DNA of 64,000 bases. Origin: Mytilisepta virgata. Lineage: Eukaryota > Mollusca > Bivalvia > Mytilida > Mytilidae. The notes beneath the pieces were generated by a model, which made no database searches, had not been told where the DNA came from, and was given only the letters and a program-made list of their open reading frames with translations. The number at the start of each line of letters is the position of its first letter. The stretch's first letter is position 1. The stretch lies in the NCBI GenBank assembly GCA_028015205.1, contig CM051513.1, positions 46,814,841 through 46,878,840 of the forward strand. The letters are read 5' to 3'. The position numbers and the translations under genes are program-made. Shown piece after piece: positions 21,101-53,684 of this stretch.

Positions 21101-24100
21101 CCATAGTACATATACTGTAAATATGGAAATTATTGCGATGTTTTTATTATTGCGAAAATTGCGATCGGTTTGGGATCGCAATATTAAAAACTCGCATTTT
21201 TAATGCAAATTTTCTTGTCCGATCTATTCTAGATATATCACCCTTTGTTTAAATTTACACCGATAAGTTTCTGGTCATTGAGTGCCGACATCCGGACACA
21301 GGTTAATTGGTAGATACTTAGTTGTATATTTATTGTTTGGACAGCTATTATATATAAATGACCATTAATTAAAACGATTTCATAAATAAAACTTCCATCT
21401 TCACTTTTTATCCCGATTTTAGTTTTCACGCGGGCAGCGATCGCAATAATTAAACCTCGCAATTTTGCCTGGAGTAGAAGAATCGCAATAATAAGTGCAC
21501 GCGAAAATTTCCGAATTTACAGTACATGATTTATACATTTTATTGATTTAATAGTCTTTGTGAGAAAATTCATATGGCAAAACCACATAGGTGAAACCAA
21601 AACCATCAAAGAAATGGTATATTTCTGATGGAGATCCTCCTTATTGTTTGCAACAGCTGCGATGGGTTAAGCCAAAACCATCAAAGAAAATGGTATATTT
21701 CTGATGGAGATCCTCCTTATATTTTACAACAGCTGCGATGAGTTAAACCAAAACCATCAAAGAAAATGGTATATTTCTGATGGAGATCCTCCTTATATTT
21801 TACAACAGCTGCGATGAGTTAAGCCAAAACCATCAAAGAAAATGGTATATTTCTGATGGAGATCCTCCTTATATTTTACAACAGCTGCGATGAGTTAAGC
21901 CAAAACCATCAAAGAAAATGGTATATTTCTAATGGAGATCCTCCTTATATTTTACAACAGCTGCGATGAGTTAAGCCAAAACCATCAAAGAAAATGGTAT
22001 ATTTCTGATGGAGATCCTCCTTATATTTTACAACAGCTGCGATGAGTTAAGCCAAAACCATCAAAGAAAATGGTATATTTCTGATGGAGATCCTCCTTAT
22101 ATTTTACAACAGCTGCGATGAGTTAAGCCAAAACCATCAAAGAAAATGGTATATTTCTGATGGAGATCCTCCTTATATTTTACAACAGCTGCGATGAGTT
22201 AAGCCAAAACCATCAAAGAAAATGGTATATTTCTGATGGAGATCCTCCTTATATTTTACAACAGCTGCGATGGGTTAAGCCAAAACCATTAAAGAAAAAG
22301 ATATTTTTCTGATGGAGATCCTCCTTATTTTTTACAACAGCTGCGATGGGTTAAGCCAAAACCATTAAAGAAAAAGGTATCTTTCTGATGGAGATCCTCC
22401 TTATTTTTTACAACAGCTGCGATGTGTTAAGCCAAAACAATCAAAGCAATGGTATATTTCTGATGTAGATCCTCTTTTGTTTACAACAGCTGCGATGGGT
22501 TAAGCCAAAACCAACAAAGAAAATGTATATTTCTGATGGAGATCCTCCTTATTTTTTACAACAGCTGCGATGGGTTAAGCCAAAACCATCAAAGAGAAAG
22601 GTTTTTTTTTTAAACAGCTGCGGTAAAGTTGAATGTTGTTTGTGATAAATAACTTACGTTTCTCATCACATATGTTTAATGATAGAAGATACATTCATAA
22701 AGTTTAATTGAGAACCAGAATGTTACTCCCGCAAGCGCCGGGTTTCACACTAATGCAGCACGGCAAAATAAATCAAATACTGTATGGCCTTCCGTGTGGT
22801 ATCCCAACATTTTATTACAATGGGTGCTTGATTTGATAATTTAGACTGTCTGAATATACACACCCCAGGCCTTATGAAATATAACTTTCTCATGTGAAAT
22901 TGCAAGATGGACAAATTGTTGTGGTAGATTGGCCTCTAACATCTTCTACATCTGCCACTGCTTAGTTACCGTGATTTTTACCATATATGATGGGTGTACT
23001 CCGGACCACCAGTTTACTCCATGTTTTCTTCCAGTAGTCTTATTCAGATTTGAAACTCATTCAACTTATATGTGGACTTTGGTGTTTGTAATTGTCTTTA
23101 TATAGCTAGTGACATCTCAGGGATATTTGATAAAAAAGATCTGATTACCAGTCACGATGGACAAATTTCGACAACTATTGAATTTCACTTTTGAGCCGAA
23201 TAGTTTGACTAAAGCAGGGTCACAGGGGCTTGATCCTACCTTTTCAAAAAGTTTATACTGTCCAGCTGCGTTTTTAGAAGAAAGAAAGCTCACTTCTTAC
23301 AAAGGCAAATGGATTGTAAACTTTTTATTGTGGCCCGATGGAGTTTGGAACCCGTCGACCCGACACCTTTTTGAAGGCTTGTTCACTGTGTAACAGGAGG
23401 GTCTGACAACTATCAGTTACCGAGCCCTGCTGTGTGCTAAAATGTCTACCGGAGCGACATTGAGACTGAATTTCTATTCAGATAAACCTCAAATAAAAGT
23501 TCTACAATAAACCACTAATTTACTGACAAACAAATGAATAGACTGACAGACAGCAGCAATTAAGACATGCAGTTCGTTCCAAAGAGACTCCAAGCTGTTT
23601 CATTTGGCAATACGAAATTATTTTAAAAGGTTTTCATATTTTGTTAACAAAAATTCAAACATTTAAATCAAAAATATAAATAGCAATTTCTTACAACAAA
23701 ATCATGGCTCTATATAAAAAATAATCATAATTTAGGAAAAACAACACTGGCAAAGTAAAAATGACACCAGAAATAATATTAAACATACTGTGGTGATAAG
23801 GAAGTTTAGCGAAAAATTCTAACATACATGTAACTTATATTTTAATCAAGAATTCAATTATACTCCAAAAACTAGAAATTGTGTCTGTAATACACGGATG
23901 CCCTGCCTTAAATGTAGGTCATAATGTATGAATGGTCAGTACTATCCAATGTACATCCACTTATAAAGTTTCGTTGATACACTATGCTTAGTTCCAAAGA
24001 AATGATCCTAAAGGCAAAACTTAACCAGAGTCGCTCAGGAATAAAATGTAGGTCATAATGACCCAATTATTGTATAACTGCTCATTACTACCCAAGGCAC

Positions 24101-29100: not shown

Positions 29101-32100
29101 TACTCTTAAATGACGAATTACATATTTTTTCTGTGCAAATGGTTATCTTATGAAAAAAGTTTTATTCAACATATGCTCTTTAATCACAAGAGAAATGGAG
29201 CGGCCAAAACAATGTTAGATACACATGAGAAAACTCAAATGAGCAACATTAGCATATTTGTCCTATTAAAATAGAAATAATTTATCGTGGTGATAGAATT
29301 GAAGTCATTTATACATTAGCTGATGTAATTTTATGTTCCCGTCCTTAACTTTTTAGTCCCGGACAGTAAACTAAAAAGCCGAAAACCAGTTTCAAATGCC
29401 AAAATTACCAAACTGGCAAAAACAAGAAACCAGGATTAATCATGAGCCATACAGGAATGTGGTAATTCACATTACTATGTAAATAATTGTTTTTGTCTAA
29501 AATATCCTGTTAAAAGTTTCATCAACCGACAATTGATTCCAGGACTGAGCCATACAGGAAGGTGGTAATTCACATTACTATGTAAATAATTGTTTTTGTC
29601 TAAAATATCCCGTGAAAATTTTCATCAACTGACAGTTGATCTCAGGATTGATCATGAGCTATACAGGAAGGGGGTAATTCACATTACTATGTAAATAATT
29701 GTTTTGTCTAAAATATCCTGTTAAAAGTTTCATCAACCGACATTTGATTTAAGGATTGAGCCATACAGGAAGGTGGTAATTCATATTACTATGTAAATAA
29801 TTGTTTTTGTCTAAAATATCCTGTGAAAAGTTTCAACAACTGACAATTGATTCCAGGATTGAGCTATAGAGGAAGGGAGTAATTCACATTACTATGTAAA
29901 TAATTGTTTTTGTCTAAAATATCCTGTGAAAAGTTTCATCAACTGACAATTGATTGATTTACAATTATGAATATTGTTATGAACGATATCTAGATTTGAC
30001 ATATACCTTTCCATTAGAATGTGCTACATTATTATAGAATTCTGGGATTGGAGTAAAACGTGCCTCCTTATACAACATAAAACCAAGACCAAAGGAAAGA
30101 GCCAAAGGTTCATCTGGATAAACAAACCAAAATCCAGTCCCCTGAAATAGAACATATTACAAATTAAAACCCTGAAATCACCTTATTACAAATTAACCCT
30201 GGACATGAGAATATTTCAAAATATAATCCTGAACATAAGATTATTACAAAATAAAACCCTGAACATGGGCTTATTATAAAGTAAAACCCTGAACATGGGC
30301 TTATTATAAAGTAAAACCCTGAACATGGGCATATTTTAAAGTAAAACCCTGAACATGAGCATATTACCCAAAAAAACCTGAACCTAAGCATATTACAAAT
30401 AAAACCCTGAACATGAATATATTAAAGATAAACCCTGAACATGTGCATAATACAAAATAAAACCATGAAAATAAGAATATTACAAGTAAAACCCTAAACA
30501 TGAGCATATTCCAAAATAAGACCCAGAACATAAGAATATTACAAAAAAATAAAACCCTGAACATGAACATATAAAATAAAACCCCTTTATTAATTAACTG
30601 TGTATTATTGACTTCAATATTACTAAAACTGTCCTTTCAATACAGAATCATCGACTCGGTCTATATCGAAAAACCTTTATTGTCAAAACTAGTTAATTAA
30701 TAAAGATATCATTACATTGTTATTTCTGTATTGGCCTTGTTATTGGTCCTCGACAAGCTGTATTGGACTCCGACTCCGCCTCATGCCAATACAGCAAACC
30801 TCGCACCAATAATAAGGGCAGTACAGAAATAAGCATGTAATAATATCATAGAACATGAGCATATTACAAATAAAACCGTGAACATGAACATATTAAAAAC
30901 TAAAGCCCTGAATTTGAGCATATGACAGGGTTCCCACAGGACCTGGAAAACGGGAAAAGACCTGGAATTCCATTTCGAATTTTCCAGGCCTTGAAAAGTC
31001 CTTGAAATTCGGAAAAATCGCCAAAATCCGGGAAAAAACCTGGATTTTACCGGATTTGTTTTTTCTCGTTAATCATCATTTCGATCCTCTTCGCATTGTT
31101 ACTGTGACCATGCAGAAATCATTATTTTATTGCCTTACTGTTGCTTTATAAAAGGTAACACAAAAGGCAATTTCGCATTGAATTCGGCTACGTCTCCTGT
31201 ATGTAATCTTTTGAGCGTTTTAAGTAACAGTATCTTGTAAGCATGTTTTGTTTTATGTTTAAAACTGACAAAATGACGGGATATTTGACTACAAAAGTGG
31301 CCTTGAAAATCATGAGAAAGCACTGGAAAACACCTTGAAAAGTCCTTGAATTTGACATGATTTTTTTTTGTGGGAACCCTGATATGACAAATAAAAACCT
31401 TGACATGAGCAGATTACAAAATATAAAGATGGTATTTAGAAGCAAACAGGTATGACGTCCGATAACAATTTGGACGGTATTCTTGTTGTAAGGTATGCGG
31501 TTACCGAAACATTTTGCAATTTTTTTTTCACTTTCTAAATTTCCATGGTATATTGTACTTTTTTAATGTATGACAAAGTACACATAAAATTTAAATAGAC
31601 GTGACCAAACTTTACATGCAAAAGAAATCACAGAATAATAAGCCTGATACAAGCCGTTCCGATAAATTGCAGATATGGGTAAATGCCAAAATAAATATTA
31701 ACCATGGAGAAGTTAGCGATATGACATATTGTAAGCTAATAAACAATAACAATATGGTTTATCCTTATGTTAAAACCAAAGAGAACATTTCTAGTACAGC
31801 TATAAATACTACAAAAACAACATAAGAAAATTCATGTATTTTATAAGGTCTAGGTCCCCGAGGGTATTCGCCAACCCAGTCGTCAGACTTGTCTGACATG
31901 ATTATTCATTGATTTGTTACAGAAATTAACAGTATTTTGCAAAATTCAAAAATAATAGAAATACTAAAGGCTCATTCCTTGTATTGCACATGGTAGATCT
32001 CCTTAGCTGAAATTTGGCTTCCTATTTCGGTATTTTTGGTTGAGTACTTATTATTTAATATAAGTTTGGTATTTGGTCTTCCAAATGTTTCGGTTTTAAT

Positions 32101-35100
32101 GCTGCTGATGAGAGGTAACTCCTTGAAATGCGTCGTATACAACATAGGATAAATTTACTATATCTATTATTAGTATCTTTGGATTGTTATTTTATTAAAA
32201 AAAAACAAACTTTTCTGATGTTTTTGGTAAAATTATATATATATATATATTTAAATACCTACTTCACTTCCAGCAGCAACGTTATTTCTCAACCAAGTAT
32301 TAGGGTTCGTTATCCAGAAAGTCGTTGGTTCTCTGAAATACGCAAGTTTGCAATCCTCAATTAGACAAGCCGACATAAAAGATAAGCAAAATTTAATAAT
32401 ATATAATTCTTTGATTTTGATGCACAAGATGTGCACATTTCGTCGATTTACGACTCATCAGTTGTGTTCAAGGCCTAAAATGTTGAAAACCAAAATAACA
32501 ATCCAAAAAGTTGAAGAGCAATTTCAAAAATGCTAAAATGACCAAAAGGGGTAAAAACCAAAACCATCTAAGGACAGAGCTGATAATAAATGATATAATA
32601 GTTATTTGACAAAAGAGAAATCTTTCGTCTTTAATTTATGTTAAAATACGATCATTTGTTTATTCGAGGATTGTAATGCGTGATCTAAGGGTATTATATA
32701 TAGTCTAGACGTGTGATGTGACTGGGGAAACTATTTATATTGTCAAAGATACCGATACTGGATAAAACTGACACTATTTATCCGATTTGAAAAAAAAATA
32801 TAGAAACGCCTTATTTATTACAAAATCAATCATATAAAACATACATTTATATATGAAAATCCACCAAAATTTGAAAGTTCTAAATATTCTTAACTCACTC
32901 TGTATCACTTAAAATCAAAGTTCCGTATTGTGTTCCTAGTCCAAGGTTACCGTCAAATATAGTACCACGTTCGCCACCATCTTCTAAGAAATAACTATGC
33001 CCTTTTGTTAAATAGACTACATTGTTCTCTACCTAAATTTAAAAGAAAAATCGCAGTTCTTTATTATCAAGATAAAGTGTATAAAACATTATCTCTAATA
33101 GTCTATGACAAAGTAATTACAAAACAAAAACAGCACAAAGACAGATTTCGAATCAAACAAGAACTATAGCAATTACAATGAACACATTTTGTGTGAAATC
33201 AAGGATGATCGCTGGTCTAATAGGAAATAAATAGGATTTGAAATAGGTGTTTCAGTTTGAGAGAACATATGAATAGTAAACAAGAACAAAATATAGGTTC
33301 ATGTGCTCATTTTAAAGCAATAAAGCCTTGAAAATTTGCATGAAATAGGTTTTCTCTGGATTTTTCATTATCTTTGCATTGGCAAATTCAGTCTCTCAAA
33401 AATGTATGAAAAAATAAAAAGGATTTCATAAATTTTTTTCAAATACCATTTTAATATATATATGATTGAATTATAAAAGAAAAAGTTTGGTTTCATGTGC
33501 AAAAAATTTAATGTCTAAGAAATGAATAAAACCCGAGGATTCCAAAAATCTGACAAAAAGACCAAAACATCGCCAGCGAGCATACTTAATATAGGAAATG
33601 TTTCTTATAAAAGTGGAATCATATTCTAAAGATACTAAAGATGAACTTTGTTAATTTTAAAAGAAATTTAAAAGAAAACGTCGTTTAATGAAACATAAGT
33701 AAATTACAAGGCAACCCTACCAACGCATTATGTGTTCCATGGACCGTTATCCCTCTTGTAAAAGAATGGTGAATTGAATTTTTTCTTAAGAATTGTCTCT
33801 CTTTAACGTCTCTACACATGTGGAAATGGAGAGGATATCGACCTGTAAAAATATTACCATATATGTACATTTGAAAATGAAGAGGAAGTTGACCTGTAAA
33901 ATATTACCATATATGTACATGTGGAAATGAAGAGGAAGTTGACCAAAAATGTTTCTAAACATGTAAAATGAGACATTAACTAGTTAAAAATTTACATCAG
34001 CTCAAGTTTGAACAACACCTTAAAATAACTTTTTTAATTTCTTTTTTAAATTGCACCATGCTACAGTTTTCAATTGGTACCTATATCTTAGTAACAATAA
34101 AGGACACGGTAGGATAAGGTCCTTTTTCTGCCCCCTCGTCAAATATCTTAATATTGGTATGTATATTAAGATATGTCTCGAAGATTATCAAAATGCGAAA
34201 AAAATGTGACCTGCCCTTTTTTGGTTGCCTAGCAACCAATTTGGAATATTGTTAGAAAAATGAGTCTTTGACGCCAATAAATGAAATTATAAGTAGATTT
34301 ATTTAAAATAGATCTACTGGATCATATATATTTGACACCAAGATGAAAATGCACGACATTTCCTACCCTGAAGAGATTGCAAGAACTGCCCTGGCAACAC
34401 ATTTATTGCCTTGGTACTAAGAGACTCTCTTGTCTAAATATGTACGTGGTTCACGTGCTCGCTCATAGTAAAGCATCCGTCAACGCATGCAGAAAATCAT
34501 CGTTTTTCTTGAAAATGCCGAATCTGCTCAATAGACGAACCTAGATTCATTTCAGAACAGATCCTAGCAGGATATTTTTGTTCATTTTCTGTAAGGGCAA
34601 GTACTTATCTACCAAAATAATGACAAAAGTTCTATATTATTCCAACTTTATTTTCGACTAAATTTGGAGGCAATTTACAACAGCTTATCATATCTTGTCC
34701 TTTTAGTATTTGTTGAAAATGTTTAAGAATAAGAAAGAAGAAAACTTACCAAGTACTTGCGGTGCACCAAGATAAGCGAGTTCAGCACCTTCAACATGCA
34801 CAGATCTGAATCCCTCTAGAAACTGTTATACAAAAATCAGTGAAATCATATAATATTGTTATAGTAAAGATACCAATAAAATCAATAGTTTTTAGCCAAG
34901 TTTGATATGACTGTGTATCGTCTATATTTGCGGGACGTCACTTGCAAGTGGTCTACAGAATTTTGTTTTGGTGCAAATGTCCCTTTCAGCTCGTGGTGAG
35001 GTGCGTTTGAATCCTATCTATTTTATCAACCAAGGTTGACTGTTATATGTACCAAGGCGGTGCATGGAATTTTCCCAAAATTCACACTGACAACAAAACT

Positions 35101-38100
35101 ATAGCGACTTACTCTGAATGTGCCTTTAATCCAAAACCTACCTATATTGTACATTTTATCCTCAACGACATCAAACGGGAACAAAAGAAAGCGGAGTCTC
35201 TCTTTTCCTGTCAACACGTTGCATATCGTTTGTTTGGCCAATTAAATGGAACGATAAAAGTGAGCAATGAGGTCAAGTAAATGTGACAATACAAGTCAAT
35301 GACGATAACAAAGCCGATATGTGATTAATTTGTATGTATGCGATCTCTGTGAATAATACTCTTGAATTCTTAAAAATAATGTATAAATACTCGTTGAATA
35401 TCTGAGGAAAACATTTGTATTGTGTGTGAAATAACATGAATACCCTTAAATGTCCGCCATAATTATCACCATCTGACGCAGGCTCAGAGTAGAACTTTAG
35501 ATTCCTGGTTAAAAGTCCCACTTCCGCTCTCATGTCCACATTCTTGTAAATATTTCCATAATGAGTAAATTCAAGTGTTTCTTAAAATTAAGAAAAAAGA
35601 AACATGCAAAGACTGTGATATACATGTTATAAGTATAAACTTGACAATTCTGCCGCACTCAAATATAAATGTATACGTGTTACAGTGTTAGAGAAATCGG
35701 ATCTGAATTGATATTCAATTCTATATATTCTATACTTAAATTGATTATGGCCACACTTGTAGTTTAATCTGTCCAACAAGGTGGTTTTTACTTATTTCAA
35801 ATATCCAACTTTCCGGTCTTGGGCACTACAGATAAATATAACATGTTTAATGTACTGTATGATATTTTATCCTATTCGTGACGTGTTTAATCGGTGGGAT
35901 AAAAATACATATTTTTAACCACCTCTTGGGTGATTAAATTTCTGCATTCCCGCCATTTATTTTACCTTTATTGGAAAGATAAACTAGAGAAGTTCCGAAA
36001 TGGCGTTCATGTAAACAAAATACGTAGAAACGACATTTTCTTGAGGTTTTTGTTGAAAATCATAGGAGAAACAGATTCTCTTTCAATTTAATCGTGAGTT
36101 ATGGAATTTCTCCACCCTCGATAGTTTAATTTTAGACATTAACACGCACGCTAAAAGCTCGCGTGTTGAACATCAAAATTTAACTATCTCGGATGGAGAG
36201 ATTCTATAACTCGCTCGTACCTGAAGGAGAATCTATATATTCTGCTTTAACAACGAAACATACTTAATGAGTATAATACAAAATGCTGGTATTTCTACAG
36301 TTAAACGTTTAAATAAAAATAATTCCAATACGATTTGTATTTTTTTAATTTTGATTGGACGACAACGTGACGTCTGAGATCTTTTTTTCCAGATAAATGA
36401 AGTTATGCGTTTGATTATGTGAACCAGTATAAAAATCCATTTTTAAAACGCTCATATTTTTTTTATTTTGCCGGAAAGTGGAATTATAATTAATAAGAGT
36501 TGTTTTCCGCAATTTATCGTTGTATAAACTCGACCAGGTCACTTACAAACGGAATAAAGTCCGGAGGACTCCGACGGACTTAATGTTGATGTTATATTTA
36601 TTTCACGCGAAAAAAATCACGTTAGATTTACGTAAACTACAAAAAAATAAAATCATTATGGCATATTGAATTGTCAAAATAATGCATAAAAGAGTGTTTT
36701 GATTTTTGTTTTTACTAAAATCAATTCGTGATTTAGTTAAAATTTTATTAATTAAGGTTTATTTCACGTGAGTGTGGGGACCTCGGTGGCTGAGTTATCT
36801 AGGTACTTCGTCATGACTACTAATGATCACTAGCCCGTAAACGCTGAGGTTGCGAGTTCGACTCTCATCTGTGGCGGAGTGTGTTCGTCTCTGATCTTAA
36901 TTGACAAGGATTGCCAATTTTTCTACCGAAGGTCGGTGGTTCTCTCTGGGTACTCCGGCTTCCTCCACCAATAAAAACTGGCCGCCGCGAAATAGCCAAA
37001 TGTGCTGAAAACGGCGTAAAACCCCAACTAAACAAACAAACAAAGCGTGAGTGTGAGATTATATTAACGTGAATACCACATAAACACATTTTTCCCGCGT
37101 CATCAGTTATAGTTTTGCGTTGAAACTGGTACTCATTTTGAGAATTGTGGTATAATGTTTATAACTTTCTGTCTTACCGTTAATTCTTATTTCATTGTTG
37201 GTACAGTCGTTACACTGAATTATCTTTCTGACCTCAGCTTGTTTCCAATCAAAGTCAGTAGATGTTATAACAATGTCGTCACCTAAAACAGAGATCATAC
37301 TTTCTGACCTCAGCTTTTTTCCAATCAAAGTCAGTAGATAATATAACAATGTCATTACCTAAAACAGAGATCATTCTTTCTGACCTCAGCTTTTTTCCAA
37401 TCAAAGTCAGTGATGTTATAACAATGTCGTCAACTAAAACAGAGATCATACTTTCTGATGTCAGCTTGTTTCGAATCAAAGTCAGTAGATGTTATAACAA
37501 TGTCGTCAGCTAAAACAGAGATCATACGTTCTGAATTCAGCTTGTTTCCAATCAAAGTCAGTAGATGTTATAACAATGTCGTCACCTAAAACAGAGATCA
37601 TACTTTTTGAATTCAGCTTGTTTCCAATCAAAGTCAGTAGATGTTATAACAATGTCGTCACCTAAAACAGAGATCATACTTTCTCACGTCAGCTTGTTTC
37701 CAATCAAAGTCAGTGATGTTATAACAATGTCGTCACCTAAAACAGAGGTCATACTTTCTGACGTCAGTTCGTTTCCAATCAAAGTCAGTAGATGTTATAA
37801 CAATGTCGTCACCAAACCAGAGATCATACTTTTTGAATTCAGCTTGTTTCCAATCAAAGTCAGTAGATGTTATAACAATGTCGTCAGCTAAAACAGAGAT
37901 CATACTTTTTGACGTCAGCTTGTTTCGAATCAAAGTCAGTAGATGTTATAACAATGTCGTCACCTAAAACAGAGATCATACTTTCTGACGTCAGCTTGTT
38001 TCCAATCAAAGTCAGTGATGTTATAACAATGTCGTCACCTAAAACAGAGGTCATACTTTCTGACGTCAGTTTGTTTCCAATCAAAGTCAGTAGATGTTAT

Positions 38101-41100
38101 AACAATGTCGTCACCTAAAACAGAGATCATACTTTTTGAATTCAGCTTGTTTCCAATCAAAGTCAGTAGATGTTATAACAATGTCGTCACCTAAAACAGA
38201 GATCATACGTTTTAACGTCAGCTTGTTTCCAATCAAAGTCAGTAGATGTTATAACAATGTCGTCACCTAAAACAGAGATCATACTTTTTGAATTCAGCTT
38301 GTTTCCAATCAAAGTCAGTAGATGTTATAACAATGTCGTCACCTAAAACAGAGATCATACTTTTTAACGTCAGCTTGTTTCCAATCAAAGTCAGTAGATG
38401 TTATAACAATGTCGTCACCTAAAACAGAGATCATACTTTTTGACGTCAGCTTGTTTCCAATCAAAGTCAGTAGATGTTATAACAATGTCGTCACCTAAAA
38501 CATAGATCATACGTTCTGTCTTCAGCCTGATTCAATCAAAGTCAGCAGATGTTATAACAATGTCGTCACCTAAAACAGAGATCATACTTTTTGACTTCAG
38601 CTCGTTTCCAATCAAAGTCAGTAGATGTTATAACAATGTCGTCACCTAAAACAGAGATCTTACGTTCTGACTTCAGCTTGTTTCCAATCAAAGTCAGTAG
38701 ATGTTATAACAATGTCGTCACCTAAAACAGAGATCATACTTTCTGACGTCAGCTTGTTTCCAATCAAAGTCAGTAGATGTTATAACAATGGTGTCACCTA
38801 AAACAGAGATCATACTTTCTGACGTCAGCTTGTTTCCAATCAAAGTCAGTGATGTTATAACAATGTCGTCACCTAAAACAGAGATCATACTTTCTGACGT
38901 CAGCTTGTTTCCAATCAAAGTCAGTGATGTTATAACAATGTCGTCACCTAAAACAGAGATCATACTTTCTGACGTCAGCTTGTTTCCAATCAAAGTCAGT
39001 GATGTTATAACAATGTCGTCACCTAAAACAGAGATCATACTTTCTGACGTCAGCTTGTTTCCAATCAAAGTCAGTGATGTTATAACAATGTCGTCATCTA
39101 AAACAGAGATCATACTTTTTGACGTCAGCTTGTTTCCAATAAAAGTCAGTGATGTTATAACAATGTCGTCACCTAAAACAGAGATCATACTTTCTGACGT
39201 CAGCTTGTTTCCAATCAAAGTCAGTAGATGTTATAACAATGTCGTCACCTAAAACAGAGATCATACTTTCTGACGTCAGCCTGTTTCCAATCAAAGTCAG
39301 TAGATGTTATAACAATGTCGTCACCTAAAACAGAGATCATACTTTCTGAAGTCAGCTTGTTTCCAATCAAAGTCAGTAGATGTTATAACAATGTCGTCAC
39401 CTAAAACAGAGATCATACTTTCTGACGTCAGCTTGTTTCCAATCAAAGTCAGTAGATGTTATAACAATGTCCTCACCTAAAACAGAGATCATACTTTCTG
39501 ACCTCAGCCTGTTTTCAATCAAAAGTCAGTAGATGTTAAACAATGTCGTCACCTTATTTCGTCAACTTAATAATTCTTTAAAACCAGTTTTGATGCACAC
39601 GTGTGCATATTTCGTCAATTTACGATTCATCAGTTGTGCTAGGACTAAAAAGTTGAAATAAAAAACAACAATACAAAAGGCTGAAGAACAAATTCAGAAA
39701 TACAAAAATGACCAAAAGAGGTATGCCAAAACAGTCTAAGGACAGAGCTATTATTACTACTTAGTTTTAAAAAATGTTCAAATTTTGTTAAAGTAAATTT
39801 CAAGTATCAATTTCGGGCTAGTATCGAAATAATAGCAACTGAGCTTGGGATACTCCCGGGGATTTGGAGTCTACCAGCAGTGGCATCGACTCAGTGGTAA
39901 AAATAATTCTTTGTTACCAATTTTGATGCAGAAGATAATAAAACAGAGATCATAATTTCTATAACAATGTGGTCACCTAAAATAGAGATATTATTCTATG
40001 AACACTTTTAAAAAGTCTTAATCAGTAAGTTAATTTTTCATGTTAGGTGTACGTTTAATAAAGAGGAAACGTTCAGATCAAATGATGATTTCTTGAAGAA
40101 AAAAAATGACTGCTCTTAATTCTAAATGTTAAAATTTATCCAATGTCAAGAACGTCAATTTAACATTTAAATAAAAATGAAAAATTTAAGATTTGCTTAC
40201 CATCTTTCCATGACGTGATGTCATCTAAAAGTGTTAATTTCGGATGAAGATTGTCTTCTCCTTGTAATACCACTAGCTTAACATAATTATTTTCTTGATT
40301 GATTCCATCCACGTGACTTTTTATTATTACTCCTATATCACCAAATATGTTGGTTGCTGTTCCATCCGATACCATTACCCCGTCTATCCTTTGGTAGGTC
40401 TCTGCGGTTGAGCTAGAATCTCCTGTAAATATTATGCCAAAGTCAATAGGAGAAATTTTGGCACTACACGGGGTAAAAAACTTTGAGGTGAAAGCAATGC
40501 AGAGTCCTCGGGTTTTATCATTGACTTCCATTATATAAGTGAAGCATTTTATTGCCAATTTAATCAAAATCTATATCATTGTTATAAACAAAACTTTAAA
40601 TGTACATTTCTGGCATATATAAATGACTTTATATTTTGTCAGGACAAAGTTTTATTACTTGGTTGGATAACAAACTTTAAATTAAATGTTAAGTTATTCC
40701 TAGAGATATGATTTGTTTTCACCTCAATAATGGTTTATTAAACATTCCACCACTGCAAATTGTGGCATCTGATTGGTTACTTGTGTATGATGATGCTTCC
40801 AAAATAACCCCTATATTTCATCATTCATATGTACACTCCCGAATCTAAAACAAAAATGACATATACTTGGAATAGCGGCACATGGCGAGCAGTACCGCCT
40901 ATTTCTACGTTAGTAATCATTGTGATCGTCCTGACAGTTTGAATGTTAAGCTCATTGATTATTATAGAATATTATATGACCATTTCCATACTGAGATGTT
41001 TGTTACGGTCCAATAAGCATGCAATATCCCCTGTATTACATGACGTATCCATATCATCCTTAGACTCCCATACCGGGCCGAGGGCTTGCCCGATATTCGA

Positions 41101-50100: not shown

Positions 50101-50859
50101 TTGGTTCAGCCATTCACGGCCAAAAAGAGATACAACTTTCATGATCTATTATGGTCCGGATATCTTAAACTTATTTCCTACTTCCATCCTCTCGTTGGTG
50201 AGCAGGGGGCAACGGACATCGGGTTCGATTAACGGAAGAGCTACTTAAAAGAAATATGAAATTTGATAAAAGTCCTAAGAAAACTAAATGCAGTGTACAG
50301 TTGCATTTAAAAAGTTTGCAGTTGGAAAGAAAAACGTGCGAAGATGTAATGCACCGTTGGTACGGTTGTTATCATAAGAACAAGCCTCTTAACATGAATC
50401 TCTATGGCAATATTGTCTGTTTTCCTATTGCAAACCGTTGTTCTCTTCTAGTTCTCTGGCAAATTCGACCATAAAAAATGGCTTCCATAACATCACTGCT
50501 TTTTGTGAGAGTTGCTTAAAGGTCATATCTTTTAGATTAGAAAATAAATAAGAAAGCGAAAACTTTCAACATGTAAAAACCAAAATTCCATCTAAAGAAA
50601 TAGTGACAAATTCAGAAAAAAATTAATACATATTTAAATATTAATAAACAAAAATAATGCACACAATTTGTCTTTGGGATCTCACTTTAAAAAGTCGAAA
50701 CTTCATAAACAATACTTGCCTTTCCATTTTGCCAGATTGTTGTGTTGCTCCATTTCAGTAGACCAAGAGACCTCTCTGGGCATCGCCTGACATGAATACT
50801 GCGAACAGCAATCGGTACGAGCAGAAACAATATCATCTTCACCATGTTACCGCTCATTT
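9091..50859 (-). CDS. CEMIP/CEMIP2-like hyaluronan-binding protein, 24 traced exons
   Basis: Vertebrate CEMIP and CEMIP2 bind and depolymerise hyaluronan outside or at the surface of the cell. Twenty-four minus-strand exons, about 1,160 codons in all, read in the family's order. A leader and CPERS are followed by a G8 domain (exons 2-4: VLEIHGEEKLSWTKL), an ILEI/FAM3-like domain (exons 4-5: KALLVYHIHPTTGQ, GAYAFVTKKG), SWKDG...STDFDWKQAEVRK, VDMRAEVGLLTRN, RYPLHFHMC, GHSYFLEDGG, TTFWITNPNTW, NNVAHSNGK and DVDGSVTGYPG. Except at the three points below, junctions are GT/AG with matching phases. It stops before the C-terminal ILEI-like domain I recall from vertebrate members. No transmembrane segment other than the leader was seen. 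Frame problems exist at exon 1, exon 11 (GGGG run) and the exon 13/14 join, so a decayed gene or assembly indels cannot be separated. Introns hold most of the repeats of this window. Confidence 0.88.
9210..9325 (-). mobile_element. Internally deleted tRNA-SINE fragment
   Basis: Reverse complement of the head (AGTGGTTAGCGCATTAGACT) and of the AAACTTATT...GGATTGGGAAACAAGTTAT tail of the 4962-5300 SINE; the middle is missing. Confidence 0.65.
9565..9935. repeat. Compound tandem and inverted repeat (CTCCAGGAGG block)
   Basis: The ~115-bp block CCTCCAGGAGGACAAAAAAG...TTTGTACGATAAACA occurs at 9565 and 9687. The second copy continues into GATTATCGGGTTTTCTGC...ATATCAGCCGC (9763-9810), mirrored at 9868-9930. 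The shared inner segment GACACAATATGAATCTTTTA occurs twice. It looks like a foldback element with an internal duplication. Lies in intron 23. Confidence 0.75.
10010..10087 (-). CDS. CEMIP-like exon 23
   Basis: Encodes NGPAIPVADYDVDPRELIHT and SRDPPP, 78 nt, phase 0 in and out, acceptor AAACAG, donor GTAAGT. Confidence 0.82.
11005..11185 (-). CDS. CEMIP-like exon 22
   Basis: Encodes YLAIMYRHTNNRDPGSYDEC, PQDACLIVRLELDLLLADEN, DVDCFSRLYSKYTVEELTPQ. The C....C spacing matches the FCSMKGC-type pair of the family. Acceptor TATATAG, donor GTAACC, phases 2 and 0. Confidence 0.88.
11236..11590 (+). mobile_element. MITE, TAAGGATGTTCGCT family (one end)
   Basis: Starts TAAGGATGTTCGCTGGTCAT and matches the reverse complement of 54207-54599 over most of its length. 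The far terminus is missing. Confidence 0.7.
12064..12372. repeat. 69-bp tandem repeat, about 4.5 units
   Basis: Unit TGATTGAGACTGGTGCCCTG...AAACTAGAGGCTCAGTGGGC...CTGTATCGCTCACC, each with an AGGCTCAGTGGGCTGAGCCT hairpin. The GAGCCTGTATCGCTCACCTG segment resembles the end of the element starting at 13622. Confidence 0.85.
12652..12814 (-). CDS. CEMIP-like exon 21
   Basis: Encodes AYVRVGICIPRDSTFNLKRN, then NSFAELDSDTDGDKYFFDSE. WIRVGLCYPRGTTF is the vertebrate counterpart. The in-phase acceptor is TAGTTCAG (before 12814), not the TAG five bases upstream. 163 nt, donor GTAAGG. Confidence 0.88.
13272..13509 (-). CDS. CEMIP-like exon 20
   Basis: Encodes IRVNYGKDEDIDSIDSDTEG, NNLLMARDDDHTVAYQVHDI, PFVVILQGSHSYSMHFTQTW and PDQQIKIFGM. 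238 nt, acceptor TATGACAG, donor GTATAA, phases 0 and 1. Confidence 0.88.
13622..14345. repeat. Bivalve-type interspersed repeat with GAATCGCTCACCTG end
   Basis: Opens with AAGAACCTGAATCGCTCACC and closes with GGACGCCATCTGATTCTTTT and ACATGTGAGCTAAAAA. The inside has three internal repeats of TATATATGGTTGCTT-like segments. No coding capacity. Confidence 0.5.
14419..14566. repeat. 25-bp tandem repeat, 6 units
   Basis: Unit GTACGAGAGATTTATGGTAA plus GGTAG, with single-base variation and one unit lacking a base; intron 19. Confidence 0.85.
15008..15150 (-). repeat. Degraded copy of the GTAAAGTCAAGAAATACC repeat family
   Basis: Contains the reverse complement of the GGAGCACC...AAAACTAAAAAC...GAACAACAACAAAACGCC order seen in the copies at 44469 and 62835; poorly conserved. 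Confidence 0.4.
15319..15534 (-). CDS. CEMIP-like exon 19 (DVDGSVTGYPG)
   Basis: Encodes NRVINYPPGHPFYTDEDGDE, then SFTDVDGSVTGYPGVTVILP, and ENWEMAFCEHQYGT. DVDGSV..YPG is one of the most recognisable CEMIP motifs. 216 nt, phase 0 in and out. An alternative CAG lies 6 nt inside. Confidence 0.92.
15905..16291 (+). mobile_element. MITE-like repeat (AGATTCTCCTTC family), copy 1
   Basis: Starts ATATAGATTCTCCTTCTGGT, contains a foldback around TTCAACACGCGAGCC...GAGCGTGTTAAAATC, and ends at CACGTCAAGAATAGG. Other copies: 35868-36236 (inverted) and 62224-62538 (truncated). Confidence 0.75.
16292..16404. mobile_element. Small foldback element
   Basis: Arms AGAATAATAGATAGTTTCCT (16292) and its complement ending near 16404, ~33 bp each, separated by ~45 bp; inserted at the end of the preceding MITE. 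Confidence 0.65.
16405..17190. other. Intron 18, nothing recognised
   Basis: AT-rich, no repeat shared with the rest of the window and no protein-like frame. Confidence 0.4.
17198..17378 (-). CDS. CEMIP-like exon 18
   Basis: Encodes NHPQIGWEILKKPDVVDGVW, FDGFPGDKEYDMGAIGFRID, then LENIKFGFND. It aligns with the IRGIQLYDGP...AFRLNN...FEDV region of the family. 181 nt, acceptor GTTTCAG, donor GTATGT. Confidence 0.88.
17737..17880 (+). repeat. GTAAAGTCAAGAAATACC repeat, partial copy
   Basis: Shares AGTAAAGTCAAGACATAC...GAGAACAACGAAGACAAGAC...CTACAATTAAAAACTAAAAA with copies at 44469, 51354, 52773 and 62835. Confidence 0.65.
17900..18655. other. Intron 17, nothing recognised apart from a MITE scrap
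   Basis: TTAAGGATGTTCTCTCCTGA at 18565 resembles the end of the TAAGGATGTTCGCT MITE; otherwise no feature. Confidence 0.35.
18660..18925 (+). repeat. Dispersed repeat (CTCGTGATCAAGACCATATTGG)
   Basis: Inverted copy at 47740-48060 shares the CGTGATCAAGACCATATTGG, TTCGACTTGTGTATTTCATA and TGAGCTGTTTCGCAACATAC segments; a scrap is at 27655-27700. Confidence 0.7.
19867..19992 (-). CDS. CEMIP-like exon 17
   Basis: Encodes MTKSIEAFFEDSVVIGLTDN, IGEPQIKKGAYGERSYPN and LAKR, corresponding to the family's IKNSLFVGESGN region. Acceptor TTTTTATAG, donor GTAAGT, phase 2 in and out. Confidence 0.85.
20035..20225 (-). repeat. Hammerhead-bearing repeat, copy 1, core mutated
   Basis: Same order as the 32405-32578 element. 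The ribozyme region (20053-20110) reads CTAATGA instead of CTGATGA on the minus strand, with weaker stem II, so cleavage should be lost. It lies just upstream of exon 17, again sense to the gene. Confidence 0.7.
20497..20562 (+). repeat. 3' tail of a non-LTR retrotransposon
   Basis: CACCGTGATATGGCTTAAAT, CGCCCACACGGCGT and ATATTCAATCAATC match the last ~65 bp of the element ending at 62208. The hairpin GCCGTG...CACGGC is shared. Confidence 0.75.
20650..20990 (+). mobile_element. tRNA-derived SINE (GGTGGTCTCGTGGTAACG head), copy 1
   Basis: TCGGTGGTCTCGTGGTAACG is an A-box-like head, GGGTTCGATCCCCGGC the B box. The body ends with GTCTAGTACAAAGCAGGGAT and CCACTGGACGTTAAACAG. Inverted copies: 26172-26480, 42888-43212 and 43596-43960; tail only at 2511-2582. 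Confidence 0.85.
21590..22620. repeat. 76-bp tandem repeat, about 13 units
   Basis: Unit AAGCCAAAACCATCAAAGAA, TGGTATATTTCTGATGGAGATCC-type middle, and TTTACAACAGCTGCGATG. The central eight are near identical, the ends diverged. Contains GGAGATCCTCC and CAGCTG palindromes. Lies in the 5-kb intron between exons 16 and 17. Confidence 0.9.
22640..23915. other. Intron between exons 16 and 17, nothing recognised
   Basis: Includes a plus-strand open frame at 23157-23393 without family resemblance. A small missing CEMIP exon might lie here but was not found. Confidence 0.35.
23916..24205. repeat. ~130-bp direct duplication
   Basis: The order AATGTAGGTCATAATG...CATCCACT...AAGTTTC.TTGATACACT...GCTTAGTTCCAAA...GCAAAACTTAACCA occurs twice, followed by a GTACGGACGTACGGACGGAC end typical of bivalve repeats. 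Confidence 0.7.
24979..25042 (-). CDS. CEMIP-like exon 16 (short)
   Basis: 64 nt encoding FKNSERHTWIRCGLLKMKLC, equivalent to the family's YKN...W.RGG segment. Acceptor TATTTCAG, donor GTATGT, phases 1 and 2. Compared with vertebrate members, a ~25-residue stretch after it is absent, so one more exon may hide in the 5-kb intron that follows. Confidence 0.75.
25764..25993. mobile_element. MITE with GGTATCCGGACCATAA termini, copy 1
   Basis: Perfect ~19-bp inverted ends (TTAAGGTATCCGGACCATAA at both sides). Copies at 49893-50169 (nearly complete) and 46762-47030 (degraded). Confidence 0.85.
26134..26164. repeat. (TA)n microsatellite
   Basis: Simple dinucleotide run followed by GGATGGATGGATG at the tail of the adjacent SINE. 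Confidence 0.9.
26172..26480 (-). mobile_element. tRNA-derived SINE, copy 2 (inverted)
   Basis: Reverse complement of the 20650 family: ends GTTAAACGTCCAGTGGCAAC and TTTGACCCGACCGGG...GAACCCGCGACC. The tail GGATGGATGGATG is a simple repeat. The A-box end is lost. Confidence 0.8.
27333..27451 (-). CDS. CEMIP-like exon 15
   Basis: Encodes LHADETTTGYNHWVGKEDPV, then LYGNSTNKETTIEKFTG. Acceptor GACTTTAG at 27452, phase 2 in; donor GTATGT, phase 1 out. Confidence 0.8.
27928..28105. repeat. 21-bp tandem repeat, about 8 units
   Basis: Unit AAGAAAGACTTGTGAGAATTC, all multiples of 21, hence open in several frames (a seven-residue repeat, RMQERLV). Lies in intron 14 without an exon link. Confidence 0.9.
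28178..28450 (-). repeat. GAGACAACAACCCGACCAAA repeat, inverted copy
   Basis: Contains the reverse complement of the 8672-8910 repeat, including GGGGCCAGCTGAAGCCCGCC and GGTCGGGTTGTTGTCTCTTT. Confidence 0.8.
28494..28626 (-). CDS. CEMIP-like exon 14
   Basis: Encodes GFENDNSSFGTFYRMLFNFN and then GDVNRAGNSYPSGAIDITAG. Acceptor ATCTGCAG, donor GTGAGC, phase 2 out. The frame needs phase 1 in, one base off exon 13; AHSNGK-V-GFENDN would match the family spacing. Confidence 0.75.
28700..29440. other. Intron 13, nothing recognised
   Basis: No exon, element or repeat shared with the window could be supported. Confidence 0.35.
29444..29955. repeat. ~103-bp tandem repeat, 5 units
   Basis: Unit GAGCCATACAGGAAGGTGG, TAATTCACATTACTATGTAA, ATAATTGTTTTTGTCTAAAA, ...GTTTCATCAAC.GACA.TTGAT. 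It sits just beyond the exon 13 donor in intron 13 but does not contain the donor. Confidence 0.85.
30007..30141 (-). CDS. CEMIP-like exon 13
   Basis: Encodes GTGFWFVYPDEPLALS, then ARFTPIPEFYNNVAHSNGK. GFWF.. and FYNN.AHSN are family landmarks. 135 nt, phase 0 in and out. Acceptor TATTTCAG is the last unit of a 29-bp minisatellite. The next exon needs phase 1, so one base is missing at this junction. Confidence 0.9.
30590..30844. mobile_element. Short inverted-repeat element inside the minisatellite
   Basis: A TTATTAATTAACTG-type segment near 30590 is mirrored by TAGTTAATTAATAAAG near 30690, and a second pair (TTATTTCTGTATTGG / CAGTACAGAAATAAG) spans 30719-30832. Array units resume at 30845. 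Confidence 0.5.
30927..31381. mobile_element. hAT-like MITE (CAGGGTTCCCACA termini)
   Basis: Ends CAGGGTTCCCACAGG and TGTGGGAACCCTG are inverted repeats. The interior contains CCTGGAAAA / CCTTGAAAAGTCCTTGAA blocks typical of this widespread animal MITE type. The flanks read ATATGA on both sides (or 7 of 8 bases if the ends are taken one base inward), consistent with a target duplication inside the 29-bp array. Confidence 0.8.
31848..32192 (+). repeat. 378-bp-type repeat, second locus
   Basis: Full-length copy from CTAGGTCCCCGAGGGTATTC to GGATTGTTATTTTATT, antisense to the CEMIP-like gene, in intron 12. Hammerhead-like core at 32104 onward is intact (CTGATGA, GAAA, GTC). Confidence 0.8.
32263..32332 (-). 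CDS. CEMIP-like exon 12
   Basis: Encodes EPTTFWITNPNTWLRNNVAA and GSE, matching the family's STFWMANPNN...AAAGSE. Acceptor CGTATTTCAG, donor GTAGGT, 70 nt, phases 2 and 0. Confidence 0.9.
32405..32578 (-). repeat. Hammerhead-bearing dispersed repeat (copy 2)
   Basis: On the minus strand a T-rich lead (CCCCTTTTGGTCATTTTAGC, ...TTTTGGTTTTCAACATTTTA) precedes the hammerhead, which is followed by GCATCAAAATC. Related copies: 20035-20225 and 39570-39745 (minus), 53685-53808 and 63190-63365 (plus), and a stub at 39905-39930. Confidence 0.8.
32423..32466 (-). ncRNA. Hammerhead ribozyme motif, complete core, in intron 11
   Basis: Minus strand 5' to 3': stem I CACAA; CTGATGA; stem II GTCG-TAAAT-CGAC; GAAA; palindromic stem III TGTGCACA; cleavage triplet ATC; stem I partner TTGTG. 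Every invariant hammerhead position is present. The self-complementary stem III has no loop, as in the dimer-forming hammerheads of newt and schistosome repeats. It lies sense to the CEMIP-like transcript, about 90 nt upstream of exon 12, within a dispersed repeat (32405-32578). Confidence 0.85.
32899..33033 (-). CDS. CEMIP-like exon 11, with one-base frame break
   Basis: Encodes VENNVVYLTKG, then in the next frame HSYFLEDGGERGTIFDGNL and GLGTQYGTLILSDTE. The break sits in a GGGG run (CCCC at 32999-33003 on the plus strand); three G would keep the frame. Donor GTGAGT. In the corrected frame it ends in phase 2, matching exon 12. Confidence 0.85.
33204..33590. mobile_element. MITE, AAGGATGTTCGCT family, diverged
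   Basis: Ends AAGGATGATCGCTGGTC and GCCAGCGAGCATACTT are imperfect inverted repeats; the interior resembles 54207-54599. Confidence 0.6.
33721..33842 (-). CDS. CEMIP-like exon 10 (RYPLHFHM motif)
   Basis: Encodes GRYPLHFHMCRDVKERQFL, then SIHHSFTRGITVHGTHNAL. RYP-HFH and SIHH.F.R..TVHG are strongly conserved in CEMIP proteins and lie in the beta-helix. Acceptor TTTACAG, phases 1 and 0. Its acceptor region is duplicated upstream. Confidence 0.93.
33843..33950 (-). repeat. Two tandem copies of the exon 10 acceptor region
   Basis: Units of ~50 bp repeat TGGTAATATTTTACAG followed by GTCAACTTCCTCTTCATTTC, i.e. the acceptor plus the first ~25 nt of exon 10. The nearer copy keeps AG (at 33892); the farther one has lost it. 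Confidence 0.85.
34000..34740. other. Intron 9, nothing recognised
   Basis: No element or frame could be supported. Confidence 0.35.
34750..34822 (-). CDS. CEMIP-like exon 9
   Basis: Encodes FLEGFRSVHVEGAELAYLG and APQVL (73 nt), matching the family's AHLEGTEL...G segment before the RYP-HFH motif. Acceptor TAACAG, donor GTAAGT, phases 0 and 1. Confidence 0.88.
35444..35580 (-). CDS. CEMIP-like exon 8
   Basis: Encodes ETLEFTHYGNIYKN, VDMRAEVGLLTRN and LKFYSEPASDGDNYGGHLR. VDMRAEVGLL.RN is a hallmark of the family. Acceptor TTTTAAG, donor GTATTC, 137 nt, phases 1 and 0. Confidence 0.92.
35868..36236 (-). mobile_element. AGATTCTCCTTC MITE family, copy 2 (inverted)
   Basis: Reverse complement of 15905-16291, from TTCGTGACGTGTTTAATCGG to ACCTGAAGGAGAATCTATAT. 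Confidence 0.75.
36776..37056 (+). mobile_element. tRNA-derived SINE with long variable arm
   Basis: GACCTCGGTGGCTGAGTTAT begins a Ser/Leu-like head, and GAGGTTGCGAGTTCGACTCT contains the B box. The body ends AAAACGGCGTAAAACCCCAA and an (ACAA)n tail at 37038-37052. Lies in intron 7. Confidence 0.75.
37178..37282 (-). CDS. CEMIP-like exon 7, parent of the 75/76-bp array
   Basis: Encodes GDDIVITSTDFDWKQAEVRK and then IIQCNDCTNNEIRIN, 105 nt, phase 1 in and out. Acceptor CTCTGTTTTAG, donor GTAAGA. The ...STDFD...QAE...C..C..N.....G pattern is the CEMIP signature of this region as I remember it. The 5' 58 nt of this exon with its acceptor form the repeat unit of the adjacent array, so this is the only copy with the 3' half and a normal donor. 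Confidence 0.9.
37283..39556 (-). repeat. ~30-copy tandem array of the exon 7 acceptor and exon 5' part
   Basis: Unit 75 or 76 bp. In gene orientation: TATGATCTCTGTTTTAG, then GTGACGACATTG...ACTGACTTTGATTGG...AAACAAGCTGACGTCAGAAAG. Each unit keeps an AG acceptor and the codons for STDFDWKQAD; the 75-bp units lack one base in ACATCTACTGAC. Many units contain the full palindrome TGACGTCA (a CRE/ATF-type site), which exon 7 itself lacks. Long open frames on both strands here are by-products of the 75-bp period. Confidence 0.93.
39570..39745 (-). repeat. Hammerhead-bearing repeat, copy 3, cleavage triplet lost
   Basis: CTGATGA and GAAA remain on the minus strand (39590-39638), but stem II has a mismatch at its base and the ATC triplet region is altered to ACACGTGTGC. 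It lies in intron 6 immediately before the exon 7 array. Confidence 0.7.
40201..40524 (-). CDS. CEMIP-like exon 6
   Basis: The largest exon, 324 nt. Encodes NDKTRGLCIAFTSKFF, then GVMVSDGTATNIFGDIGV, VKLVVLQGEDNLHPKLTLLD and DITSWKDG. The SWKDG end leads directly into the exon 7 GDDIVITSTDFD block. Donor GTAAGC, phase 1. The acceptor (GGAAG) has a weak pyrimidine tract. Confidence 0.85.
40580..41340. other. Intron 5, nothing recognised
   Basis: No repeat family of this window and no protein-like frame. Confidence 0.35.
41363..41542 (-). CDS. CEMIP-like exon 5
   Basis: Encodes IPDGDIVAFAVLRKIDK, then YVAQLGYGDPTASALVRG and GAYAFVTKKG, the core of the ILEI-like domain. 180 nt, phase 1 in and out, acceptor TTGCAG, donor GTAATA. 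Confidence 0.9.
41560..42510. other. Intron 4 (part), nothing recognised
   Basis: AT-rich; no supported feature before the 37-bp array. Confidence 0.35.
42515..42732. repeat. 37-bp tandem repeat, 6 units
   Basis: Unit TAATGATTAGGAGACGGATT, GATAAAACCAGGCTTGT; almost identical copies, suggesting recent expansion. Confidence 0.9.
42888..43212 (-). mobile_element. tRNA-derived SINE, copy 3 (inverted)
   Basis: Complete inverted copy of the 20650 family: GTTTAACGTCCAGAGGCAGC, ...GGCCGGGAATCGAACCCGCG, ...ACGCTACAACGAGACCACCG, with a (GGAT)n tail at 42888. Confidence 0.85.
43403..43556 (-). CDS. CEMIP-like exon 4
   Basis: Encodes NTADVPWDEKALLVYHIHPT and then TGQLITEDYFVFSTTKNEA, the first strands of the ILEI/FAM3-like domain. 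Acceptor TTTCAG, donor GTATGT, 154 nt, phases 0 and 1. Confidence 0.88.
43596..43960 (-). mobile_element. tRNA-derived SINE, copy 4 (inverted)
   Basis: More diverged copy: TTTAACGTCCAGAGGCAATA, GGCAGGGGATCGAACCCGCG, ACGCTACAACAAGTCTACCA. Lies upstream of exon 4 in intron 3. Confidence 0.8.
44469..44665 (+). repeat. GTAAAGTCAAGAAATACC repeat, full-looking copy
   Basis: Runs from GTAAAGTCAATCAATACC through GAGAACAACGAAGACAACAC to ATGGACCCCACAAAAAACCG and GGTGCTCCGTAAGAGTAAGC. Confidence 0.75.
45081..45228. mobile_element. MITE with CAGTCAAACCTGTCTATAA termini
   Basis: CAGTCAAACCTGTCTATAAA at the left is mirrored by TTTAGAGCAGGTTTGACTTT at the right; the interior has the repeated GTGCCCTTTATA motif common to this animal MITE type. 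Confidence 0.8.
45695..45960 (-). repeat. GAGACAACAACCCGACCAAA repeat, inverted copy
   Basis: Same segments as 28178-28450 (GGAACCTCTAGCCTTTGTTA, GGTCGGGTTGTTGTCTCTTT), with a small deletion in the middle. Confidence 0.8.
45975..46760. other. Intron 3, imprecise internal repetition
   Basis: ACAATTCACGTATATTGCCT / ACTCCCCGTATATTGCCTTA recur at ~60-bp spacing in 46250-46430; no element definable. Confidence 0.35.
46762..47030. mobile_element. GGTATCCGGACCATAA MITE, degraded copy
   Basis: Starts GAGGTATCCAGACCATAAAA and keeps CCGAAATTTGCCGAAAATTA; the right end (TTCCGGATAATTTAG) is diverged. It abuts exon 3. Confidence 0.6.
47045..47208 (-). CDS. CEMIP-like exon 3 (G8 domain, second part)
   Basis: Encodes GDIADIDDFGFDKGLYVQSG and GVLEIHGEEKLSWTKL. 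Acceptor TTGATAG before 47208; an equally in-phase acceptor 18 bp upstream (47226) arises from a duplication of TTATTGATAG. Donor GTGAGT, phase 0. Confidence 0.88.
47345..47640. mobile_element. Foldback MITE, copy 1 (ATTTAATATTGGATATAACG)
   Basis: Left half ends with a hairpin: AAATAACCTCAATGCACATG faces CACGTGATTGAGGTTATTTC around a short loop. Copy 2 at 49289-49572 lies in the next intron, same orientation. Confidence 0.75.
47740..48060 (-). repeat. Inverted copy of the 18660-18925 repeat
   Basis: AAGTATGTTGCGAAACAGCT, AAACGACTAAAATGTATGAA and CCAATATGGTCTTGATCACG are reverse complements of that repeat. Confidence 0.75.
48065..49040. other. Intron 2, nothing recognised
   Basis: No supported feature. 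Confidence 0.35.
49046..49255 (-). CDS. CEMIP-like exon 2 (G8 domain, first part)
   Basis: Encodes NADVIIDSPVLLDVEPPPLQ, then IKPEGYLIWD and GEMHMGGEDC. It is 210 nt, phase 1 in and out. The GEMHMGG...C stretch corresponds to the GGELHAG...C region of G8 domains. Confidence 0.85.
49289..49572. mobile_element. Foldback MITE, copy 2
   Basis: Same family as 47345-47640, ~85-90% alike by eye, including the GTGTGCACCACGTGATTGAG segment. Confidence 0.75.
49893..50169. mobile_element. GGTATCCGGACCATAA MITE, copy 3
   Basis: Left end TAAGGTATCCGGACCATAAA, right end TTATGGTCCGGATATCTTAA. Interior opposite in orientation to 25764-25993. Confidence 0.85.
50716..50859 (-). CDS. CEMIP-like exon 1 (leader, CPERS...)
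   Basis: ATG at 50859 opens a signal-peptide-like leader (MVKMILFLLSYRLLFAVF), but the family-like continuation CPERSLGLLKWSNTTIW is one frame over. Either an indel lies near 50790, or the leader is in an unseen upstream exon and this exon starts at a CAG near 50795. Donor GTATTG, phase 1. Confidence 0.6.
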
Positions 50860-53680: not shown

Positions 53681-53684
53681 TTTG

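Follow-up and report, generated by a model that had tools for sequence, protein, structure and literature searches.

A tandem array of 29 intronic copies of the acceptor and start of exon 7 in a CEMIP/TMEM2-like gene of Mytilisepta virgata

A tandem array was analysed at the 3' end of intron 6 of a CEMIP/TMEM2-like gene on the minus strand of a 64,000-bp stretch of the genome of the bivalve Mytilisepta virgata (assembly GCA_028015205.1, contig CM051513.1, positions 46,814,841 to 46,878,840; hereafter the window). The last part of intron 6 (40200-37283; 2918 nt) consists of 29 tandem units, each 75 or 76 bp long, that repeat the end of the intron together with the start of exon 7, and exon 7 itself is the thirtieth. 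The true acceptor is preceded by 29 near-identical ones, 28 of which have an intact AG; only the last site in the row is compatible with the reading frame as a beginning of exon 7. The array is probably a neutral intron-exon 'mirage' minisatellite, and exon definition would direct most splicing to the last acceptor. It is best read as tolerated noise, not as a device. The features concerned are the following (window coordinates; a slash marks an intron/exon border or its counterpart in a unit).

10942-50857, minus strand: CEMIP/TMEM2-like gene with 21 coding exons, reading from its start codon (50857) to its stop (10942)
40201-40422, minus strand: exon 6, ending GATG/GTAAGC, phase 1
39939-39989, minus strand: degenerate unit, ATCTCTATTTTAG/GTGACCACATTGTTATA, an internal deletion, then GAAATTATGATCTCTGTTTTA; blastn matches to the array
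39553-39938, minus strand: stretch of about 385 bp between the degenerate and 5' units, taken to be an interspersed repeat that was inserted here, with inferred ends
39495-39552, minus strand: 5' unit, 58 nt resembling the exon start, with the acceptor CTCTGTTTTAG replaced by other sequence and CTGAGGTCA as in exon 7
37283-39494, minus strand: 29 tandem decoy units, each an acceptor plus 58 or 57 nt of exon 7, with a donor-like GT in 28 of 29
37178-37282, minus strand: exon 7 (GDDIVITSTDFDWKQAEVRKIIQCNDCTNNEIRIN), the 3' terminal array unit, aligned with TMEM2 chain 8c6i_A

The initial annotation had proposed about 30 copies of a 75/76-bp unit, each consisting of the acceptor and start of exon 7 and lying within the upstream intron. 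Both points were borne out: 30 units with an acceptor were counted including exon 7, i.e. 29 decoys, in addition to the 5' unit, and homology is beyond doubt, with 1-7 columns per decoy differing from exon 7 (14 in the 5' unit). Tandem Repeats Finder (TRF) reported the array at 37224-39554 with a period of 76, 30.8 copies, 94% match and a score of 4093. A 76-bp unit comprises 18 nt of intron end (GTATGATCTCTGTTTTAG) followed by 58 nt of exon 7 start, the exon part being 57-58 nt across the array; 19 decoys measure 76 bp and ten measure 75 bp. As had also been stated, the remainder of the exon and its donor are confined to the last unit, since exon 7 alone continues into ATAATTCAG... and the donor G/GTAAGA. 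The claim that every other unit is a decoy acceptor stands for the 28 of 29 decoys in which AG is intact, but fails for decoy 23, where AG is lost, and for the 5' unit, which lacks an acceptor. The acceptor 11-mer CTCTGTTTTAG is exact in 27 of the 29 decoys, and AG is directly followed by GT in 24. A possible donor GTATGA, assigned earlier to each unit, is present in 27 decoys; one has GTAAGA instead and decoy 28 has lost its donor.

Placing the end of the feature at 39556 was adequate for the main array but leaves out the degenerate unit farther upstream (39989-39939). Parts of the separating stretch (about 39927-39569) matched 32403-32581, 63192-63364, 53679-53907 and 20044-20223 at 70-84% in blastn searches. 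The simplest reading would be that a repeat was inserted into an older, longer array. Copy number refers to one assembled sequence, which leaves room for an inflated copy number or a misjoined array. We consider such an artefact very improbable, as the units are not identical and fall into subfamilies that recur every four units, and two further degenerate arrays of related build are found in the same gene. The array unit had no exact match in viral contigs.

The marker CTGAGGTCA was used to examine the turnover of the units. In exon 7 it falls in the part encoding AEVR in QAEVRK, and E is present at this place in three homologues and in TMEM2. It is common to the 5' unit, decoys 28 and 29 and exon 7, and is altered in decoys 1-27 (to CTGACGTCA, CTGAATTCA and others). 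Its presence at the array edges and its alteration inside fit the exon as source and a turnover of the interior by local expansion; this assessment of interior homogenisation was made from the marker, without a tree. TRF additionally detected a period of 303 bp, corresponding to four-unit blocks, which suggests that such blocks were duplicated. The minisatellite probably arose by a tandem duplication across the intron/exon boundary, with one breakpoint in the intron immediately ahead of TATGATCTCTGTTTTAG and the other following AGAAAG in exon 7. It would then have grown by repeated local expansion and homogenisation, leaving exon 7, the inferred source of the units, as the downstream end unit. 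None of the 194 homologous proteins fetched contains the start of exon 7 in tandem. A loose motif for this segment matched once in 179 of them, not at all in 11 and twice in four; in P0009, P0015 and P0016 the extra match was N-terminal and dissimilar, while in P0036 of Lingula the segment is genuinely repeated, at a distance of 290 residues.

This architecture corresponds to that of the 'mirage' minisatellites described in the amphioxus globin genes BflGb6 and BflGb9 and in Adh3, which reportedly leave splicing undisturbed (PMC3087553). The BflGb6 minisatellite likewise consists of the 3' end of an intron and the 5' part of the next exon, carries AG/GT in many but not all units, and is homogenised in its interior but not in its boundary units (PMC3087553). 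All of these traits were found here, namely units spanning the boundary with 18 intron and 58 exon nt per 76 bp, splice signals in many but not all units (AG in 28 and AG/GT in 24 of 29), and an interior homogenised to the exclusion of boundary units as judged from CTGAGGTCA. The present array differs in size: its 29 decoys of 75/76 bp contrast with the 6 and 3 units that two haplotypes of BflGb6 carry (PMC3087553).

Products of decoy use were then predicted. When a decoy acceptor is used and the transcript is read through to the exon 7 donor, a stop is encountered in all 29 products, 12 to 151 residues past exon 6. The main cause is that the frame in which a 76-bp unit is entered reads ...TTT AGG TGA and that a 76-bp unit follows every run of 75-bp units; a few decoys meet a stop even earlier. 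The earlier suggestion that upstream acceptors would add steps which, from unit to unit, either keep or shift the frame was thus rejected in its in-frame part, as in-frame steps do not arise by extension. When donor-bearing decoys are included as cassettes, 22 of 28 products contain a stop, and six (decoys 5-9 and 20) remain open and add 19 residues. In-frame products are therefore possible only by inclusion of one of six particular 75-bp units as a cassette or by skipping of exon 7, which keeps the frame.

Substitutions within the decoys gave no sign of selection on them as exons or as splice sites. Among 32 distinct substitutions relative to exon 7, counted as independent changes irrespective of unit history, two fell into the 11-nt acceptor (P 0.14) and three into the first two bases of the exon (P for excess 0.05). 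Changes in the exon part were nonsynonymous in 21 and synonymous in five cases (neutral synonymous fraction 0.21, P 0.66). A role of the units as selected alternative coding exons was rejected given this neutral ratio and a one-T deletion that shifts the frame in eight of the 29 decoys.

The initial annotation had also proposed that mutations in unit length could tune protein output. In a corrected form of this idea, decoys would compete with exon 7 and their mostly stop-bearing products would be degraded, such that array copy number would set protein output. The intact AG and the donor-like GT, each in 28 of 29 decoys, and the stops in all read-through products and in 22 of 28 cassette products (six are open) would be compatible with such poison exons. 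We nevertheless regard this regulation as unlikely: retention of the decoy acceptors is not significant, the decoy exons are only 57-58 nt long and have donors weaker than that of exon 7, and similar amphioxus arrays were reported or suggested to cause no disturbance of mRNA (PMC3087553, PMC3902484).

Splice sites were scored with matrices built from the gene's own sites (leave-one-out) and, for donors, also with a metazoan matrix. With the own-gene matrix, the exon 7 donor scored 8.6 compared to 4.9 (24 decoys), 5.9 (three) and 6.8 (one) for the decoy donors; with the metazoan matrix, it scored 8.9 compared to 5.2 for the common decoy donor, 3.6 for three and 6.4 for one. The commonest decoy donor, AAA/GTATGA, falls inside the range of the gene's own donors (3.5-11.6), and decoy exons are below the gene's minimum exon length of 64 nt. 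In most transcripts, exon 6 would be joined to the last acceptor, presumably because a strong donor (ACG/GTAAGA) and a longer exon follow that copy alone. The decoys, which offer 57-58-nt exons with weaker donors, would be mostly ignored by the splicing machinery, and their use would mostly yield stop-containing RNA that is presumably degraded.

The juxtaposition of AG and GT invites another explanation. Most units combine AG/GT with a short cryptic exon that has a donor of its own, which is the anatomy of a recursive-splicing (RS) exon. Joining of exon 6 to a decoy recreates GATG/GTGACG, which could be spliced to the next acceptor. Because the donor is regenerated, mis-choices would erase themselves and the mRNA would be constant whatever the copy number. 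That the array functions as such a ratchet seems improbable to us, and the same holds for the related notion of an acceptor ladder on which exon 6 could land on any of the 24 AG/GT decoys and then splice onward. The number of AG/GT decoys speaks for it, as does the strong GTGAGG of the first transcribed decoy, which after joining to exon 6 scores 8.6 (own-gene matrix) or 8.7 (metazoan matrix). In addition, RS-exon anatomy and donor competition are known (PMC8605326), and human tandem repeats show an over-use of AG/GT sites (PMC10809524). The usual regenerated donor ATG/GTGACG, however, scores below AAA/GTATGA (3.6 versus 4.9 own-gene, 4.9 versus 5.2 metazoan matrix). By the donor-competition rule of PMC8605326, a regenerated donor weaker than that of the cryptic exon leads to inclusion and not to erasure, although the margin is small. 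Before joining, GTGACG also trails GTATGA with the own-gene matrix (2.0 versus 4.9) while being slightly ahead with the metazoan one (5.6 versus 5.2). Further, the +1 G is altered in four decoys via three distinct changes, and four exons of the gene besides exon 7 likewise begin with GT. If the ladder were real, exon-start minisatellites would be tolerated, perhaps favoured, at acceptors of exons starting with GT, and introns would lengthen with the mRNA unchanged. The arrays at exons 13, 10 and 7 (most to least degenerate; see below) would then represent stages, a loose fit for exon 13, which starts with GG.

The host gene looks intact: its exons join into one open frame, and both domains and full-length matches were found. 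Searches by tblastn with three bivalve-type homologues, two of them from Mytilus, gave matches on 18 of the 21 exons in the expected order; exons 1, 5 and 16 were placed by eye based on open frame, splice sites and phase. The joined exons yield 1079 codons, and all sites are GT-AG except for one GC-AG (exon 1). The apparent GC donor of exon 1, AAAG/GCAAGT, is located at 50714-50723; this exon is among those placed by eye. No sign of a pseudogene was seen in the 1079 codons, which are open over all 21 exons. Among ten open-frame pieces scanned against Pfam, one contained a G8 domain (6.7e-12) and one CEMIP_beta-hel (1.2e-17); a second G8 piece was slightly below the cut-off and the other seven had no accepted family. 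Exons 6-7 align to the structure of a cell surface hyaluronidase (TMEM2, PDB 8c6i chain A). Among the matches listed, the four best full-length proteins were covered to 95-98% with 40-42% identity, the top one at 42% identity and 98% coverage and the Mytilus proteins, which were the best named matches, at 40% and 95-98%. The G8 domain, the CEMIP beta-helix and full-length collinearity together identify the gene as CEMIP/TMEM2-like.

Smaller arrays were present at two other acceptors of the gene.

33843-33943, minus strand: second acceptor array, two upstream copies (starting at 33943 and 33893) of GTCAACTTCCTCTTCATTT...GTAATATTTTACAG before exon 10; TRF 33816-33944, 50 bp x 2.5
33721-33842, minus strand: exon 10, whose first ~27 nt belong to a third copy of that 50-bp unit (76.9% across 52 bp, acceptor side included)
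30140-30584, minus strand: third acceptor array, made up of some 15 degenerate units of 30 bp, ...ATGTTCAG/GG, and extending 2 nt into exon 13 (30141-30007)

The exon 10 array is more diverged than that of exon 7, and its farther upstream copy lacks AG. The exon 13 array contains nine exact TTCAGGG, the real acceptor included; a stray block of its 30-bp unit lies farther upstream at 30851-30927. Tandem arrays thus cover three of 20 acceptors and none of 20 donors. Upon random placement a mean of 0.47 acceptors was covered; the probability of covering at least three acceptors was 0.010, and that of covering at least three sites of either kind was 0.019. For this test, 13 arrays, obtained from 36 TRF rows (period of at least 12, within the gene, overlapping rows merged), were placed independently. 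The permitted exon overlap of at most 60 nt was set after the 59-nt overlap of exon 7 had been seen, and exon 13 counts by virtue of 2 nt. Being post hoc and including the 2-nt overlap of exon 13, the test gives only a hint of acceptor enrichment.

Several observations weigh against a neutral minisatellite that is spliced mainly to its last acceptor. Three arrays on 20 acceptors exceed what random placement usually produces, and something beyond chance may be involved. Furthermore, the commonest decoy acceptor and the exon 7 acceptor have the same score of 3.6. The latter is weak for the gene because only two of the other 19 acceptors, which range from 1.3 to 10.5 (leave-one-out), score lower. 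The sequence CTGAC, which we take to be a branch-like motif, precedes 19 of the 29 decoys, while CTGAG precedes exon 7; this might favour the decoys. Finally, no sequence from the species itself was found among the best 120 of 458 and the best 120 of 1234 protein matches, and a third protein search for such a sequence gave one match only, with 54% identity over 27%.

The closest known system is the amphioxus 'mirage'. New are the bivalve-type gene, the 29 decoys and the smaller arrays at exons 10 and 13. The present case differs from the amphioxus mirages in concerning three acceptors of one CEMIP-like gene. Tandem repeats overlapping splice sites in lancelet PGBD5 and troponin C have been suggested to leave splicing undisturbed, but those of PGBD5 are imperfect repeats of 60 and 108 bp at both 5' and 3' sites (PMC3902484). 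The potato RdRp gene shows that an intron can arise when genomic DNA is duplicated in tandem across an intron-exon boundary (PMC4974935); there, one duplication gave a new intron, whereas here there are many copies and no new intron was shown. As in UBC and other dual-specific tandem-repeat genes, the units carry AGGT, potentially serving as donor or acceptor, but the repeats of UBC are coding and are spliced in varying numbers (PMC10809524), whereas those described here are intronic. RS-exons likewise have an acceptor directly abutting a donor, with a short, donor-bearing cryptic exon behind it (PMC8605326); in contrast to these systems, the ratchet donor is weak in most units of the array and the intron is just 2.9 kb long. 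Human internal tandem repeats at exon-intron boundaries, where minisatellite expansion can alter splicing, have on average 30-bp units in four copies and lie in segmental duplications (PMC2812944), unlike the array here. The 27-bp minisatellite in intron 3 of the abalone TSSK1-like gene, whose repeat number varies among individuals, is also intronic and in a mollusc gene but is not reported to lie on an intron/exon boundary (PMC6905558); another mollusc paper describes simple repeats (PMC3862624). No boundary array from a mollusc was found in the open-licence literature among the matches listed, which brought up cases from lancelet, human, potato and, via the potato paper (PMC4974935), yeast.

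Boundary-spanning 'mirage' minisatellites would thus extend from lancelets to a bivalve-type genome, which would suggest a recurrent route of intron lengthening. Moreover, the array offers a natural experiment on spliceosomal choice between identical 3' splice sites, which might fall on the first one transcribed, on the last, or on the one with a good exon behind it. If copy number varied among individuals, a graded allelic series would be available.

Finally, the palindrome TGACGTCA, which has the form of a CRE/ATF site, was noticed in the interior of the array. It occurs 19 times in the window compared to 0.66 expected in shuffles; 14 copies lie in the exon 7 array (37759-39430), three in an unrelated 69-bp array and two are single. 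The array might accordingly be a cluster of intronic binding sites or a recombination-prone motif. Of all explanations considered we deem this regulatory one the least probable, as the 14 array copies are probably derived from one change and are not independent, and as the motif was noticed after the fact. The unrelated 69-bp array is located at 12064-12372, with its three TGACGTCA copies within 12151-12296. Another 76-bp array (21597-22602, 13.3 copies, 95% match) is found in intron 15, away from splice sites. Outside the gene, the region 59045-61888 contains long open frames that, judged by eye from their translation, resemble a non-LTR retrotransposon (reverse transcriptase, RNase H-like).

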